Of a DNA stretch of 64,000 nucleotides, positions 3,597 through 52,931 are shown piece after piece (within the stretch, counting starts at the first letter, position 1; every line of letters begins with the position of its first letter). The position numbers were made by a program, and so were the translations under genes. Where the stretch lies: contig NC_014376.1 in the NCBI RefSeq assembly GCF_000144625.1, positions 434,001 through 498,000 on the forward strand, in the 5' to 3' direction. The notes below the pieces were generated by a model. The model saw only the letters and a program-made list of their open reading frames with translations. It made no database searches and was not told the DNA's origin. The DNA comes from [Clostridium] saccharolyticum WM1. Lineage in GTDB: Bacteria > Bacillota > Clostridia > Lachnospirales > Lachnospiraceae.

Positions 3597-4619
3597 ATGA
3601 AAATTATTGTTACCGGAGGAGCCGGTTTTATCGGTGGAAATTTTGTTCATCATATGGTAAATAAGTACCCGGATTATCAGATCATCAACCTTGATCTTCT
3701 GACCTATGCAGGAAACTTAGAGACATTAAAGCCTGTGGAGGATAAGCCTAATTATAAATTTGTTAAAGGGGATATTGCGGACAGGAGCTTTGTCTTTGAC
3801 CTCTTTGAAAAGGAAAAACCTGATGTGGTGGTAAACTTTGCGGCAGAGAGTCATGTGGACCGTTCCATTACGGATCCTGAGGCTTTTGTAAGAACAAATG
3901 TGATGGGGACTACAACTCTCCTTGATGCGTGCCGCACGTACGGCATCAAGCGTTATCATCAGGTTTCTACGGATGAAGTATACGGCGACCTGCCTTTGGA
4001 CCGCCCGGATCTGTTCTTTACAGAAGAAACACCCCTTCATACCTCGAGTCCCTATTCCTCGTCCAAGGCCAGTGCAGACCTTTTCGTACTGGCATACCAG
4101 AGGACATTTGGACTTCCGGTGACCATTTCCAGATGCTCCAATAACTACGGGCCGTATCATTTCCCGGAGAAGCTGATTCCTCTTATTATCAGCCGCGCCC
4201 TGGCAGATGAAGAACTTCCGGTTTACGGAACAGGAGAAAATGTAAGAGACTGGCTCCATGTATCCGATCACTGTGAGGCCATTGACCTGATCATACACAA
4301 GGGAATAGCCGGTGAAGTGTATAATGTGGGCGGACATAATGAGCGCACCAACCTAGAAGTGGTTAAGACTATTTTAAAGGCCCTTGATAAGCCGGAGAGC
4401 CTGATCAAATTCGTTACGGACCGTCCGGGCCATGACAGACGCTATGCCATTGATCCGAAGAAGCTGGAAACCGAGCTTGGCTGGAAACCGAAATATAACT
4501 TTGACACCGGGATCCGTCAGACCATTCAGTGGTATCTGGATAATGAGGATTGGTGGAAGCACATCATCAACGGGGAATACCAGAATTATTTTGACAATAT
4601 GTACGGCAACCGCTTATAA
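3597..4619 (+). CDS. rfbB: dTDP-glucose 4,6-dehydratase
   Basis: A 340-residue extended short-chain dehydrogenase/reductase that converts dTDP-glucose to dTDP-4-keto-6-deoxyglucose with bound NAD. The N-terminal GGAGFIGGNF Rossmann motif, the STDEVYGD segment carrying the catalytic Thr-Asp-Glu, and the YSSSKAS YxxxK motif (residues about 152-158) are all visible. AGGAGG precedes the ATG at 3597. It lies 61 bp after rfbA and 111 bp before rfbD; the second gap holds a copy of a recurrent hairpin element. Confidence 0.97.
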   Translation: MKIIVTGGAGFIGGNFVHHMVNKYPDYQIINLDLLTYAGNLETLKPVEDKPNYKFVKGDIADRSFVFDLFEKEKPDVVVNFAAESHVDRSITDPEAFVRTNVMGTTTLLDACRTYGIKRYHQVSTDEVYGDLPLDRPDLFFTEETPLHTSSPYSSSKASADLFVLAYQRTFGLPVTISRCSNNYGPYHFPEKLIPLIISRALADEELPVYGTGENVRDWLHVSDHCEAIDLIIHKGIAGEVYNVGGHNERTNLEVVKTILKALDKPESLIKFVTDRPGHDRRYAIDPKKLETELGWKPKYNFDTGIRQTIQWYLDNEDWWKHIINGEYQNYFDNMYGNRL

Positions 4620-4715
4620 TTTTTCCGGCATGATTTCCTTTATGAAGGCTGTTTGCACTGCCTGTATTCAGGAAATCTGCCTTTTAAGGAGCCAAAGGCG
4701 AATGAAACTTTCTTA
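4618..4715 (+). repeat. Recurrent post-stop hairpin element, divergent copy (rfbB-rfbD gap)
   Basis: The sequence after the rfbB stop resembles the elements found after rplK, rplJ and rpmE: a T-rich stretch after the stop, a first hairpin (GGC/GCC outer pairs around GTTTGCAC, about 4646-4661), a GGAAATCTGCC segment, then GGAGCCAAAGGCGAATGAAAC. The last part matches the rplJ-rplL copy at most positions, but the outer stem is weaker. It lies inside the operon, just before the rfbD ribosome binding site. Confidence 0.5.
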
Positions 4716-4730
4716 AGAAAAGAGGTATCT

Positions 4731-5579
4731 ATGAAAGTATTTGTTACTGGCGTGAAAGGCCAGCTTGGATTTGATGTGGTAAATGAACTGAAAAAGCGGG
4801 GACATGAAGCGGTTGGAGTAGACATTGATGAAATGGACATCACCGACAGAGACAGTGTGAACCTGGTCATTCAGGCGGCAGCTCCCGATGCAGTCATCCA
4901 CTGTGCCGCTTATACGGCTGTGGATGCGGCGGAAGAGAATGAGGAAGTGTGCCGGAATGTGAATGCAAAAGGAACAGAGTCCATTGCGAAGGTATGCCGG
5001 GAGCTGGATATCCCGATGATGTACATCAGCACAGACTATGTGTTCAATGGACAGGGAACCCGCCCATGGGAGCCTGATGATCCAAGGGAGCCGTTAAATG
5101 TTTATGGTCAGACCAAATATGAGGGAGAACTGGCAGTGGAAGAAAACCTCACCAAATATTTCATCGTCAGAATTGCCTGGGTATTTGGCGTGAATGGAAA
5201 GAACTTCATAAAGACCATGCTGAATCTTGGAAAGACCCATGATAAATTAACGGTGGTGGCTGACCAGACAGGTTCTCCTACCTATACCTTTGATCTTGCC
5301 CGTCTTCTGGTGGACATGATAGAAACTGAGAAATACGGGCGTTACCATGCTACAAACGAAGGCATGTGCACCTGGCATGAATTTGCCTGCGAAATCTTTA
5401 AACAGGCCGGAATGGATGTAAAAGTGGAGCCTGTCAGCTCCGACCAGTATCCGGCAAAAGCGAAACGGCCTGCCAACAGCCGCATGAACAAGGATAAGCT
5501 GGAGGAAAACGGTTTTCTCCGTCTGCCTTCCTGGCAGGATGCCTTAAAACGGTATCTGGAGGTCGTTTTTCCAGGTTAA
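4731..5579 (+). CDS. rfbD: dTDP-4-dehydrorhamnose reductase
   Basis: A 282-residue short-chain reductase that catalyses the last, NAD(P)H-dependent step to dTDP-L-rhamnose. It begins MKVFVTGVKGQLGFDVV and contains STDYVFNG and the YGQTKYEGE YxxxK catalytic motif, followed by the VADQTGSPTYTFDLA segment typical of RmlD. I chose the ATG at 4731, which follows AAGAGGT; an earlier in-frame start at 4653 would place the recurrent intergenic element inside the protein. The downstream AraC gene starts 15 bp after its stop, so the two are cotranscribed. Confidence 0.95.
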   Translation: MKVFVTGVKGQLGFDVVNELKKRGHEAVGVDIDEMDITDRDSVNLVIQAAAPDAVIHCAAYTAVDAAEENEEVCRNVNAKGTESIAKVCRELDIPMMYISTDYVFNGQGTRPWEPDDPREPLNVYGQTKYEGELAVEENLTKYFIVRIAWVFGVNGKNFIKTMLNLGKTHDKLTVVADQTGSPTYTFDLARLLVDMIETEKYGRYHATNEGMCTWHEFACEIFKQAGMDVKVEPVSSDQYPAKAKRPANSRMNKDKLEENGFLRLPSWQDALKRYLEVVFPG

Positions 5580-12470: not shown

Positions 12471-12498
12471 GTGGGAGGGAAATCCCCGACAATACCAC
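12471..12498 (+). promoter_or_regulatory. Ribosomal protein L1 binding site in the rplK leader (23S rRNA mimic)
   Basis: The leader contains GTGGGAG, a short GGG/CCC stem, and AATACCAC, closing as a GTGG/CCAC helix. This copies the L1 site of 23S rRNA, where GUGGGAG faces AAUACCAC. It lies 22 nt before the rplK start. L1 is known to repress its own operon by binding such a site. An almost identical copy precedes rplA. Confidence 0.75.
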
Positions 12499-12520: not shown

Positions 12521-12949
12521 ATGGCAAAGAAAGTAACGGGATATATCAAATTGCAGATTCCAGCAGGAAAGGCTACACCAGCTCCTCCTGTAGGTCCGGC
12601 ACTTGGACAGCATGGTGTAAACATTGTACAGTTTACAAAGGAATTTAACGCTAGAACGGCTGATCAGGGAGACTTAATCATTCCGGTTGTTATCACTGTT
12701 TATGCTGACAGAAGCTTTAGCTTCATAACCAAGACTCCGCCTGCTGCTGTATTATTGAAGAAGGCCTGCAAGATCAAATCCGGATCTGCGGTTCCCAATA
12801 AGACAAAGGTAGCTACAATTACCAAGGCTGAATTACAGAAGATTGCTGAGCTGAAGATGCCAGACTTAAATGCTGCATCCGTTGAGACAGCTATGAGCAT
12901 GATCGCCGGTACCGCAAGAAGTATGGGTATCACGGTAGTAGAGGCATAA
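12521..12949 (+). CDS. rplK: 50S ribosomal protein L11
   Basis: A 142-residue L11 of usual length. The N-terminal [20 protein letters not shown] and the C-terminal RNA-binding part ([19 protein letters not shown]) are clear. An AGGAGG site precedes the ATG. An L1-binding mimic lies in its leader, and a recurrent hairpin element follows its stop. Confidence 0.97.
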
Positions 12950-13037
12950 TTTTCTTATTAAAAGCGGGCGCAAGCGCAGCTTGAATTTAGAAAACAGCCG
13001 TTCGAAGAGCCGTAAGGCCAATCGGACTTCCTTATAA
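12944..13037 (+). repeat. Recurrent post-stop hairpin element, copy 1 (rplK-rplA gap)
   Basis: It begins at the last codons of rplK. After TAATTTTCTTATTAAA comes hairpin 1 (AGC, CGC, AA loop, GCG, GCT), then ATTTAGAAAACAGCC, then hairpin 2: GTTCGA with TCGGAC outside, GCC-GTAA-GGC inside, and ending ACTTCCTTAT. The order and conserved blocks recur after rplJ and rpmE. There is no T-run, so it is not a plain terminator. Confidence 0.7.
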
Positions 13038-13063
13038 TATAGCAGTGATGATGTTTTAAGAAC

Positions 13064-13092
13064 GTGGGAGGGAAAATCCCCGACAATACCAC
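13064..13092 (+). promoter_or_regulatory. Second L1 binding-site mimic, upstream of rplA
   Basis: It repeats the rplK-leader site with one extra A in the loop: GTGGGAG, a GGG/CCC stem, then AATACCAC. It ends one base before the TAGGAGG of rplA, so bound L1 would directly block ribosome entry on its own gene. Confidence 0.75.
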
Positions 13093-13108
13093 TAGGAGGT
13101 TATTTAGA

Positions 13109-13804
13109 ATGAAAAGAGGAAAAAGATACGCAGAGGCAGCTAAAACAGTAGATCGTTCTGTTCTCTACGATGCACCGGCAGCAATCTCTTTAGTTAAGCA
13201 GAATGCAAGTGCTAAATTTGATGAAACCATTGAAGCTCATATCAGAACCGGTTGTGACGGACGTCACGCAGACCAGCAGATCCGTGGCGCAGTTGTACTT
13301 CCCCACGGTACAGGTAAGACCGTTCGTATTTTAGTTTTCGCTAAAGGCCCGAAAGCTGATGAAGCACAGGCTGCAGGCGCAGATTACGTTGGAGCTGAGG
13401 AACTGATTCCGAAGATCCAGAACGAAGGCTGGCTGGATTTTGATGTAGTTGTTGCTACACCAGATATGATGGGTGTTGTTGGACGTCTGGGACGTGTCCT
13501 GGGACCAAAGGGCTTAATGCCGAACCCAAAAGCTGGTACAGTTACCATGGATGTAACAAAAGCAATCAACGATATCAAAGCTGGTAAGGTTGAGTACAGA
13601 CTTGATAAGACAAATATTATCCACGTGCCAGTTGGAAAAGCTTCTTTCGCAGAAGAACAGTTAGCGGACAACTTCCAGACGCTTGTTGATGCAATCATCA
13701 AAGCAAGACCAAGTACAGTTAAAGGTGCTTACTTAAAGAGTGTTACACTGGCTTCCACTATGGGACCCGGCGTAAAGCTGAACGTAGCAAAGTTAATGAG
13801 CTAA
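13109..13804 (+). CDS. rplA: 50S ribosomal protein L1
   Basis: A 231-residue L1 of normal length with the signature [20 protein letters not shown] and the [20 protein letters not shown] segment. The ATG at 13109 follows AGGAGGT at 13094-13100. A longer in-frame start at 13064 is a GTG inside the L1-binding site and is rejected. L1 is also the likely repressor of rplK-rplA. Confidence 0.97.
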
Positions 13805-13817
13805 TTTTGTTTTGTGG

Positions 13818-13846
13818 TTGACATTAATTATAAATAATGTTATAAT
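13818..13846 (+). promoter_or_regulatory. Strong promoter of the rplJ-rplL transcript
   Basis: TTGACA (13818-13823), 17-bp spacer, TATAAT (13841-13846): a perfect consensus. It feeds the L10 leader, so rplJL can be transcribed separately from rplKA. Confidence 0.9.
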
Positions 13847-13854
13847 ATTTCAGT

Positions 13855-13983
13855 ATTAACTGCCGAAGACAGCAGGTGCCGTAAGGCATAAGGTGCAAAC
13901 GCCTGCCGAGGAATGTACAAGAATCATTTTTTATAAATGAATTGTAGACCTCTCTGTCCATATGGCGGAGAGGTTTTTCTTTG
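13855..13983 (+). ncRNA. L10 (rplJ) leader RNA with attenuator
   Basis: The conserved CTGCCGAAGACAGCAGG...GCCTGCCGAGG core (13860-13912) is the known L10 leader bound by the L10-(L12)4 complex. It is followed by an intrinsic terminator hairpin (ACCTCTCT 13948-13955 with GGAGAGGT 13967-13974, then T-rich). Excess L10/L12 is expected to favour termination before rplJ. A further hairpin (about 13999-14023) lies just before the rplJ ribosome binding site. Confidence 0.9.
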
Positions 13984-14048
13984 CGGTTTATACGAGCGGA
14001 CCTTTTCGGGCAACCGGAAGGTTCAGACTAAACAGGAGGTAAACCATA

Positions 14049-14552
14049 ATGGCAAAAGTTGAATTAAAACAGCCAGTTGTAAGCGAGATCAAGGAATTAC
14101 TCGACGGCGCTGAGTCAGCGGTAGTTGTAGATTACCGTGGTATCACAGTTGCTCAGGATACAGCGCTTCGTAAGAAATTAAGAGAGGCCGGTGTTTCCTA
14201 CAAAGTATATAAGAATACTATGATCCGTTTTGCAGCTAAGGGTACAGCATTTGAAGCACTGGATCCAAATCTGGAAGGACCTACAGCAATCGCTGTATCC
14301 AAGACAGATGCAACCGCTCCGGCTAGAATCCTGGCTGAATTTGCTAAGACAGCTCCGGCTCTTGAAATCAAGGGCGGCGTTGTAGAAGGCAATTACTACG
14401 ATGCAAAGGGTATGGAGAAGATCTCCGGCATTCCTTCCAGAGAGATCCTTCTTGGAAAGCTGCTTGGAAGCATGCAGTCTCCTATCGCAAACATTGCCCG
14501 CGTTCTCAAGCAGATTGCAGATGCTCAGGGCGGAGAAGCGGCAGAGGCTTAA
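14049..14552 (+). CDS. rplJ: 50S ribosomal protein L10
   Basis: A 167-residue L10, the base of the L7/L12 stalk. The N-terminal KQPVVSEIKELLDGAESAVV and YRGITVAQDTALRKKLREAG segments are typical, and the C-terminal helix (PIANIARVLKQIADAQ) is the dock for L12 dimers. CAGGAGG precedes the ATG. It is controlled by its leader RNA. Confidence 0.97.
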   Translation: MAKVELKQPVVSEIKELLDGAESAVVVDYRGITVAQDTALRKKLREAGVSYKVYKNTMIRFAAKGTAFEALDPNLEGPTAIAVSKTDATAPARILAEFAKTAPALEIKGGVVEGNYYDAKGMEKISGIPSREILLGKLLGSMQSPIANIARVLKQIADAQGGEAAEA

Positions 14553-14637
14553 TTTTCTTAATAAAAGCATGCTGAGAGCTGCTTAAGATTAGAAAATCAG
14601 CCGTTCGAGAAGCCAAAGGCGAATCGAACTTCCTAAA
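14547..14637 (+). repeat. Recurrent post-stop hairpin element, copy 2 (rplJ-rplL gap)
   Basis: Starting at the rplJ stop: TAATTTTCTTAATAAA, hairpin 1 (AAGC/GCTT outer, GCT/AGC inner), GATTAGAAAATCAGCC, then hairpin 2 with GTTCGA pairing TCGAAC around GAA-GCC-AAA-GGC-GAA. It is the most regular of the four copies and ends shortly before the rplL ribosome binding site. Confidence 0.75.
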
Positions 14638-52632: not shown

Positions 52633-52842
52633 ATGAAAGAGGGAATCCATCCAAATTACTATCAGGCCAAAGTTGTTTGCAACTGCGGTAATGAATTTGT
52701 AACTGGTTCTACAAAGGAAGATATCCACGTAGAAGTTTGTTCTAAATGCCATTCATTCTACACCGGTCAGCAGAAGGCTGCTTCCGCTCGTGGACGTATT
52801 GATAAATTCAATCGTAAATATGGCGTTAAGGCTGAGGCATAA
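52633..52842 (+). CDS. rpmE: 50S ribosomal protein L31 (zinc-binding form)
   Basis: A 69-residue L31 starting [20 protein letters not shown], with the second pair in [12 protein letters not shown]; the four cysteines mark the zinc-containing form. GAGGTG just upstream supports the ATG at 52633; the in-frame GTG at 52624 is part of that site. A recurrent hairpin element follows its stop. Confidence 0.96.
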
Positions 52843-52931
52843 TTTCTTCAATGAATGCAGTCGAAGCACAGCAGGAATTTGGGAAATCAGCCGTTCTGTA
52901 CGCCCTCATGGCGTATCGAACTTCCTTATTA
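52837..52931 (+). repeat. Recurrent post-stop hairpin element, copy 3 (rpmE-DUF1385 gap)
   Basis: It starts at the last rpmE codons (GAGGCATAATTTCTT), has hairpin 1 (TGC/GCA outer pairs), a GGGAAATCAGCC block, then hairpin 2 with GTTC/GAAC outside and TACGCC/GGCGTA inside, ending ACTTCCTTAT. The inner stem differs in sequence from the rplJ copy but still pairs, which supports a conserved RNA fold. Confidence 0.75.

Follow-up and report, generated by a model that had tools for sequence, protein, structure and literature searches.

A dispersed two-hairpin RNA element at the 3' ends of genes and stable RNAs in Lachnospiraceae

REP/BOX-type interspersed RNA repeats have long been known, and it is still debated whether to regard them as parasites or as punctuation. 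The question is raised by a short repeat that follows stop codons of ribosomal protein genes in the stretch of DNA analyzed here (64,000 nt, the window), part of a 4.66 Mb, single-contig genome (G000) probably belonging to the genus Lacrimispora. The repeat matched no named family in a preliminary description made from the sequence, and this holds: no Rfam 15 family overlaps any copy scanned at gathering score (whole window and sets of loci of other genomes) or at weaker thresholds (three loci at E<=5, ten at E<=2). Searches covering open-access PubMed Central found no description of it. The element thus fits no Rfam 15 family, and may correspond to a published motif outside Rfam.

Copies in the window and their fold

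A covariance model matches four copies of an element of ~91 nt in the window, after rplK, rplJ, rpmE and, diverged, after rfbB, the very sites previously described. Hairpin 1, an abutting hairpin 2 and an unpaired tail follow each other in this order.

4627..4715, + strand: diverged copy between rfbB (dTDP-glucose dehydratase, end at 4619) and rmlD (start at 4731), both by NCBIfam; 81 bits; fold z -2.8
12943..13034, + strand: copy after rplK (L11); hairpin 1 12943-12999, hairpin 2 13000-13027, tail 13028-13034; 83.4 bits; fold -28.4 kcal/mol, z -2.8
12947-12949: rplK stop codon TAA, within the base of hairpin 1
14546..14636, + strand: copy after rplJ (L10), in the rplJ/rplL gap; hairpin 1 14546-14602, hairpin 2 14603-14629, tail 14630-14636; 95.1 bits; fold -30.3 kcal/mol, z -4.9
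14550-14552: rplJ stop codon TAA, within the base of hairpin 1
52836..52928, + strand: copy at the 3' end of rpmE (L31); 81.3 bits; fold z -3.0
52840-52842: rpmE stop codon TAA, within the base of the copy

Neighboring genes were identified by NCBIfam as L11, L1, L10, L7/L12, L31, dTDP-glucose dehydratase and dTDP-dehydrorhamnose reductase, with a NusG gene upstream of rplK. The two-hairpin fold already proposed is found in all four copies; shuffled sequences folding as well were 2 out of 200 for the rfbB copy, whose hairpin 2 is weak in the centroid fold, and none out of 200 for each of the others. The rplJ copy is the top model match of the window's genome, and two occurrences of TTAGAAAANCAGCCGTTCGA, a block taken from it, are found in the window when up to 3 mismatches are allowed, against 0.01 expected. 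The ATTAGAAAA(T)CAGCC block, previously regarded as a separate part, really belongs to hairpin 1, which is larger than described; it forms the 3' arm and pairs with GGC..(A)TTTTCT; the outer stem of this hairpin, holding the stop codon in its base after rplK, rplJ and rpmE, had been overlooked.

Hairpin 1 is made up by GGC/GCC, a small internal loop, AUUUUCU/AGAAAAU, CUUARYGA...GARYUUAG and an apical stem. Within CUUARYGA...GARYUUAG, a U-U mismatch is in register with A-U and Y-R pairs and with two G-A mismatches. Hairpin 2 follows with no spacer, and is formed by GUUCGAU-GA/GA-AUCGAAC closed by GCC/GGC. The U-U and tandem G-A mismatches are conserved, the mismatch-bearing module being CUUAGCGA/GAGCUUAG. 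The two G-A mismatches of hairpin 2 are replaced by Watson-Crick pairs in copies residing directly before rplJ (position checked in L074 and L080). The commonest tail, ACUUCCUUA, is found in 21 of 136 copies outside Lacrimispora.

The first model was built on 13 copies from the window's genome; widened alignments include 94 copies (80 distinct), 64 copies (57 distinct) and, across genera, 73 copies (69 distinct). Two-sided compensatory cells are 150 in the 94-copy alignment (42.4±5.1 in shuffled ones), 115 in the 64-copy (34.6±4.5) and 306 in the cross-genus alignment (79.6±8.5), numbers reached by 0/500 shuffles in each, all three alignments being fitted to models and hence biased toward structure. 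Two-sided changes involve 22 of the 23 modelled pairs (94-copy alignment), in line with the earlier remark that stems vary yet still pair. About 92% of cells are paired, and the figure drops to 21–51% when partners are slid by 1–3 columns (91.8% vs. 27–46% in the cross-genus alignment). A model-free MAFFT alignment of 13 rows has 14 two-sided cells vs. 5.4±2.0 in shuffles, with a covariation score equalled by 1 shuffle out of 500; in these rows neither the pairs with two-sided change (5 vs. 3.6) nor the pair types (20 vs. 19.4) exceed shuffles. G-U outnumber A-C combinations in the stems (96:31), which agrees with a function of the modelled strand as RNA, and part of the excess may be accounted for by the fitting of alignments to the model. 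In the window's genome sense copies have a ratio of 28:5, and antisense copies one of 14:11 (p 0.02), a small sign hinting that antisense copies may escape RNA-level selection.

In several cases the end of the host unit itself serves as the 5' arm, with a 3' arm complementary to this end. At the rpsL site the coding end AAAAGUAA.. provides the 5' arm and ..UUAUUUU the 3' arm; at the rpsM site GAAGAAAUAAC pairs with GUAUUUCUUC; at the 23S site the terminal GACC pairs with GGUC. The 3' arm may be rebuilt at each site either by selection or by the copying process, and pairing matters either way. The data support the element as a real structured RNA.

Other features were noted in the window. Rfam L10_leader RF00557 resides at 13845-13988 between rplA and rplJ (88.9 bits); the same gap hosts in copy-poor species, such as G004 and G017, an additional copy of the element directly before rplJ (L074, L080). 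Two near-identical GTGGGAGGGAAA(A)TCCCCGACAATACCAC motifs are located at 12471-12498, just before rplK, and 13064-13092, just before rplA; they presumably resemble the ribosomal protein L1 binding site, and Rfam at gathering score reports nothing at either motif. Three very long open frames (2108, 1413 and 4700 aa) span 20348-46906, and their size suggests a candidate peptide or polyketide synthase cluster.

Distribution and turnover

The family extends well beyond the four copies first noticed: the window's genome contains 27 matches at E<0.01, a number rising to 32 at E<1. The element is carried by all 25 genomes of the genus, its own included, in 1–27 copies (model R1). Copy number is bimodal, 16–27 in eight species and 1–6 in the other 17, and in a tree of 23 rows drawn from the minC/minD region the eight copy-rich species fall on one side of a branch (92/90). 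No match was found in 16 genomes from other families of the order (model R1). The covariance-model search of Lachnospiraceae genomes, suggested earlier, yielded many copies with strong covariation. Within this family the element was detected in 17 of 40 genomes, its own included (model R3, 108 candidates scored), and in at least 51 of 397 at E<=1e-3 (model R2, about 10 candidates scored per genome). In a class-wide draw, at least 7 of 391 genomes match at E<=1e-5, two of the seven, among the matches scored, being outside Lachnospiraceae (model R3); the 11 candidates scored per genome set a loose bound on false matches, and true ones were also missed. At this loose bound, chance was rejected as the source of the matches. 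The only non-Lachnospiraceae matches among those scored are L213 and L219 (G699) and L214 (G793), not beside ribosomal genes as called, which may reflect either transfer or chance. An exact pattern monitored in named genome contigs was found in 10 stretches, all from records labelled Lacrimispora, Clostridium or Hungatella; viral contigs gave 0 matches.

Beyond the preliminary description, the element is dispersed as a repeat, its copies can be tandem or nested, some copies are antisense in Lacrimispora, and species differ in presence or absence. Head-to-tail arrays with a period of about 86–93 nt occur in G001, G012 and G321, and one element lies within another at L103:933-1077. The nearest relative of 112 copies from multi-copy genomes is in the same genome at another site for 34 and at the same site for 30, in another genome at another site for 39 and at the same site for 9, same-genome figures being inflated by repeated genes (G091) and rRNA operons (G139, G272).

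Two Lacrimispora sites were compared, and copies differ between species at both (the flanking gene names minC, minD, atpG and atpD, like other gene names of the window's genome outside the window, are tentative). The minC/minD gap hosts an antisense copy in 2 of 24 relatives and a scar joining the two ends of the element in 4, and is empty in 18; copies and scars may stem from one gain or from separate ones, as the tree fits either. As to a target site duplication, TTTTTA is present on both sides of the G000 copy, in a region which is T-rich and otherwise changed. Among 18 atpG/atpD regions, the window's genome has a complete copy followed by part of another, G009 a shifted copy, G012 three in tandem, 14 partial remnants, and G010 little or nothing, a mix denoting an old copy that has both decayed and expanded, and no clean gain. 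The element is dispersed as a repeat, and differs between species.

Reading 30 of the 32 matches in the window's genome, 17 are sense to both neighbors, 9 antisense to both, 3 convergent and 1 divergent; orientation bias is not significant in this genome (17/26, p 0.17).

Position, orientation and known repeats

Position was analyzed in 136 model matches from 48 genomes, all outside Lacrimispora. Duplicate loci of one place, L223 (Lacrimispora) and weak or partial matches (L160:436, L159:6728, L159:1795, L175:1641, L211:1402, L102:1534(+), L110:1362) were left out; L159:6649 was counted, though nested within L103:933. Genes were called by a simple script which misses short ones, and the ends of rRNAs and tRNAs were taken from Rfam, save for four 23S ends.

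Relative to the upstream unit, as called, 122 copies are sense and 8 antisense, the unit being uncalled for 6, so that 122 of 130 called copies are sense to it (p about 3e-27); 107 of the 136 have sense units on both sides. The 8 were kept as called, though L204 and L211 begin at a sense-frame stop codon, and L190 is sense upstream of 16S. As many as 75 of the 122 sense copies begin -10 to +12 nt from the end of the upstream unit (64 of 107 coding, 11 of 15 rRNA/tRNA). The commonest phases of coding copies are -1 (22), -7 (17) and -2 (10), which set the stop codon at the very start of the element; it falls within the first 8 nt (-8 to 0) in most anchored coding copies. Coding anchors correspond to 63 genome-site combinations in 35 genomes, and anchoring ends include the stop codons of rpsH, rpsN, rplJ, rpsM, pgk and others, and the 3' ends of 23S, 5S and tRNA. 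The next sense unit downstream is at a median distance of 106 nt (quartiles 57 and 223), only one lying within 12 nt (n=113). Since the ribosome-binding site also bars elements from the vicinity of start codons, the telling fact is the sharp upstream phase. The remaining 47 sense copies are not at a called upstream end, some being second copies of arrays or following genes missed by the caller.

Copies follow rpsH (18 in 15 genomes), rpsN (12 in 8), rplJ (10 in 7), 23S (9 in 6), rpsM (7 in 7), pgk (6 in 6), rpsL and rplW (4 in 4 each), tRNA (4 in 1), rplK, infA and rplP (3 in 3 each), 5S, rpsG and ssb (2 in 1 each), gap and grpE (2 in 2 each), rpsK (1), and others. Names of upstream genes rest on start motifs; in an NCBIfam check of ten, eight were above cut-off as named (S8, S14, S13, S12, L10, L11, L23, S7), and the pgk and rumA-type genes matched below cut-off. 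The earlier statement that copies always lie in operons between translation genes is correct for rplK and rplJ, and fails for rfbB and genome-wide. Among the nine 23S copies, the start lies at -4 to -6 in seven and near +50 in two; at the contig ends L124, L131, L152 and L191 the 23S end was placed by eye from its terminal sequence, and these four distances (-4 to -6) are partly chosen. Of the four tRNA copies, two start 2 nt past the tRNA and two follow in array. Three copies, all in G426, lie 57–122 nt upstream of 16S. Three copies in a single genome, G272 (L117, L185, L186), are antisense beside 5S, residing between 16S and 5S and starting exactly at the 5S 5' end, in rRNA operons ordered 16S-5S-23S.

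G091 hosts near-identical copies (L134, L140, L163, L165) within a repeated gene, whose long open frames continue through the element; judging from its start, the gene seems to encode an AAA-ATPase-like protein. Copies in L110, L113, L215, L216, L221 and L226 overlap rRNA methyltransferase-like genes at their 3' end, and the stop codon of these genes is 31–124 nt inside the element span or beyond it; the one gene checked of the six, in L110, is RlmD-type, below the NCBIfam cut-off.

Between -8 and +12 relative to the 3' end, TTTTT was seen in just 3 of the 136 copies. The element is therefore no intrinsic terminator, as the lack of T-runs had already suggested.

The element seems to behave like a REP/BOX repeat without the REP marks that were monitored, a tag and a linked transposase. 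According to PMC3733652, GTAG- or CGTC-tagged REP/BIME are short, hairpin-forming, interspersed and mostly intergenic, often downstream of coding regions, plausibly transcribed and at times intragenic, and in all this the element is similar. In contrast, REPs are there given as 20–40 bp single palindromes with a GTAG/CGTC tag, while the element is ~91 nt long and has two different hairpins with strong covariation; the words 'Firmicutes' and 'Clostridi' do not occur in the main text of that paper. The consensus has neither GTAG nor CGTC; 19 of 136 copies carry one of them no farther than 8 nt from the 5' end, and GTAG in rpsH and rpsN copies arises from the codons TGG TAG. No element was detected (E<=1) in 30 loci around Y1_Tnp genes, out of 78 matches. 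PF01797 is found in 10 of 14 genomes and missing in G009, G014, G097 and G272, all of which carry the element. With the tag in 19/136 copies only and no linked Y1 transposase in the loci scanned, the element lacks these marks of RAYT-associated REPs.

Streptococcal BOX, likened here by description, is modular, with repeatable inner units, transcribed stem-loops and mutual insertion, and has been proposed to impede 3'-5' exonucleases, as we propose for the element; unlike it, BOX is over-represented between convergent genes (PMC3049150), the element being sense and at the end of the upstream gene. ERIC, Correia and Rickettsia palindromic elements (RPEs) are, by description, similarly miniature mobile elements folding in RNA, and in-frame insertion into genes, apparently the case for the G091 copies, is described for RPEs; all of these elements differ in host, and are defined by terminal inverted repeats (PMC10969869, PMC3049150). 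The ends of the element, GGCAUAA.. and ..ACUUCCUUA, are no mutual inverted repeats (consensus, by inspection), and the mark of MITEs with terminal inverted repeats is thus missing. The L17 downstream element RF01708 is also a structured RNA just downstream of a ribosomal protein gene, but is described for one gene in Lactobacillales and Listeria (PMC2864571); no Rfam match to it was found at the copies scanned.

Possible roles

We regard as about evenly balanced the proposal that the element is a dispersing repeat which separates the upstream unit by 3'-end processing and protection. The short repeat, whose transcribed strand folds into two abutting hairpins and an unpaired tail, has been copied around genomes, by a putative mobilising enzyme, and would be retained above all where its RNA directly adjoins the 3' end of an upstream mRNA cistron, 23S, 5S or tRNA, in polycistronic transcripts of translation machinery and central metabolism. 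An endonuclease would cut at or beside the element, the hairpins would then block 3'-5' exonucleases, and each unit would acquire its own stability, set apart from what comes next; a candidate protein may read the G-A/U-U motif. The 3'-end role is favored because the sites share the 3' end of an RNA unit, and because folds of this kind have published roles in protection and cleavage: the folded RNA of BIME, ERIC, Correia and BOX is said to shield from 3'-5' exonucleases or to create endonuclease sites, those of RNase E or RNase III for ERIC and Correia (PMC3049150, PMC10969869), and REPs to stabilise or destabilise mRNA (PMC3733652). The preliminary description had suggested RNA processing, mRNA stability or protein-binding regulation; the former two fit the 3'-end anchoring, a fit and no proof. 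Against such a role, the copies inside open frames of G091 and the antisense copies beside 5S in G272 do not fit, and, 9 of 30 copies in the window's genome being antisense to both neighbors, a role at the RNA level cannot cover all copies there. Both the family-wide sense copies and the loosely oriented, copy-rich Lacrimispora clade would be accounted for by a dispersing element which benefits the host at some sites and has no effect at others.

The element may also be, in a tentative and rather doubtful reading, a Lachnospiraceae RNA punctuation, one fold served by one reader protein or nuclease at the 3' ends of 23S, 5S, tRNA and ribosomal protein genes, a spreading mark that would write 3' ends and sometimes the stop codon.

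No host role at all would be needed if the element were purely selfish miniature mobile DNA, its hairpins serving transposition, surviving in intercistronic gaps while other insertions are purged. We hold this possible, if unlikely. In line with it are gain with empty sites at minC/minD, arrays and nesting of copies, the occurrence of both orientations in the window's genome, the burst to 16–27 copies in eight related species and nearest relatives often in the same genome. Yet 122 sense vs. 8 antisense copies outside Lacrimispora and the sharp stop-codon phase are not, nor are compensatory changes keeping pairing over deep divergence; no common target sequence is evident at stop codons and 23S, 5S and tRNA ends, and the G-U:A-C ratios of sense and antisense copies hint at RNA-level selection.

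Phage put sites are hairpins that act on RNA polymerase. Two abutting hairpins, frequent in long ribosomal protein and rRNA operons and devoid of a terminator, might likewise act on the polymerase, or keep Rho off the untranslated gap, long operons being fully transcribed; this is quite improbable, as position tracks the end of the upstream unit and not promoters, several copies lie within one operon, and short gaps such as rplJ/rplL host the element too. The stop codon in the first 8 nt of most anchored coding copies would agree with a terminating ribosome melting hairpin 1 and setting re-initiation on the next gene, but the element is also at the untranslated 3' ends of 23S and 5S and after tRNAs, and the next start codon lies at no fixed distance from it, which makes such coupling very unlikely. 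Many copies reside in ribosomal protein operons, but a feedback leader bound by a ribosomal protein is hardly credible, and regulation by one such protein was rejected, the same architecture following many unrelated genes (pgk, gap, grpE, a rumA-type gene) and stable RNAs, and a separate L10 leader being already present in the same operon.

The element combines very strong covariation, sharp 3'-end anchoring, use in both stable RNA and mRNA, and recent turnover in one clade, features which together make the parasite-or-punctuation question directly testable. If the punctuation reading is true, rRNA maturation and ribosomal protein mRNA stability would share the same machinery. Operons hosting the element are as a rule strongly expressed, and in Lachnospiraceae, a dominant gut family, annotation misses an RNA element which is common in the operons expressed most.
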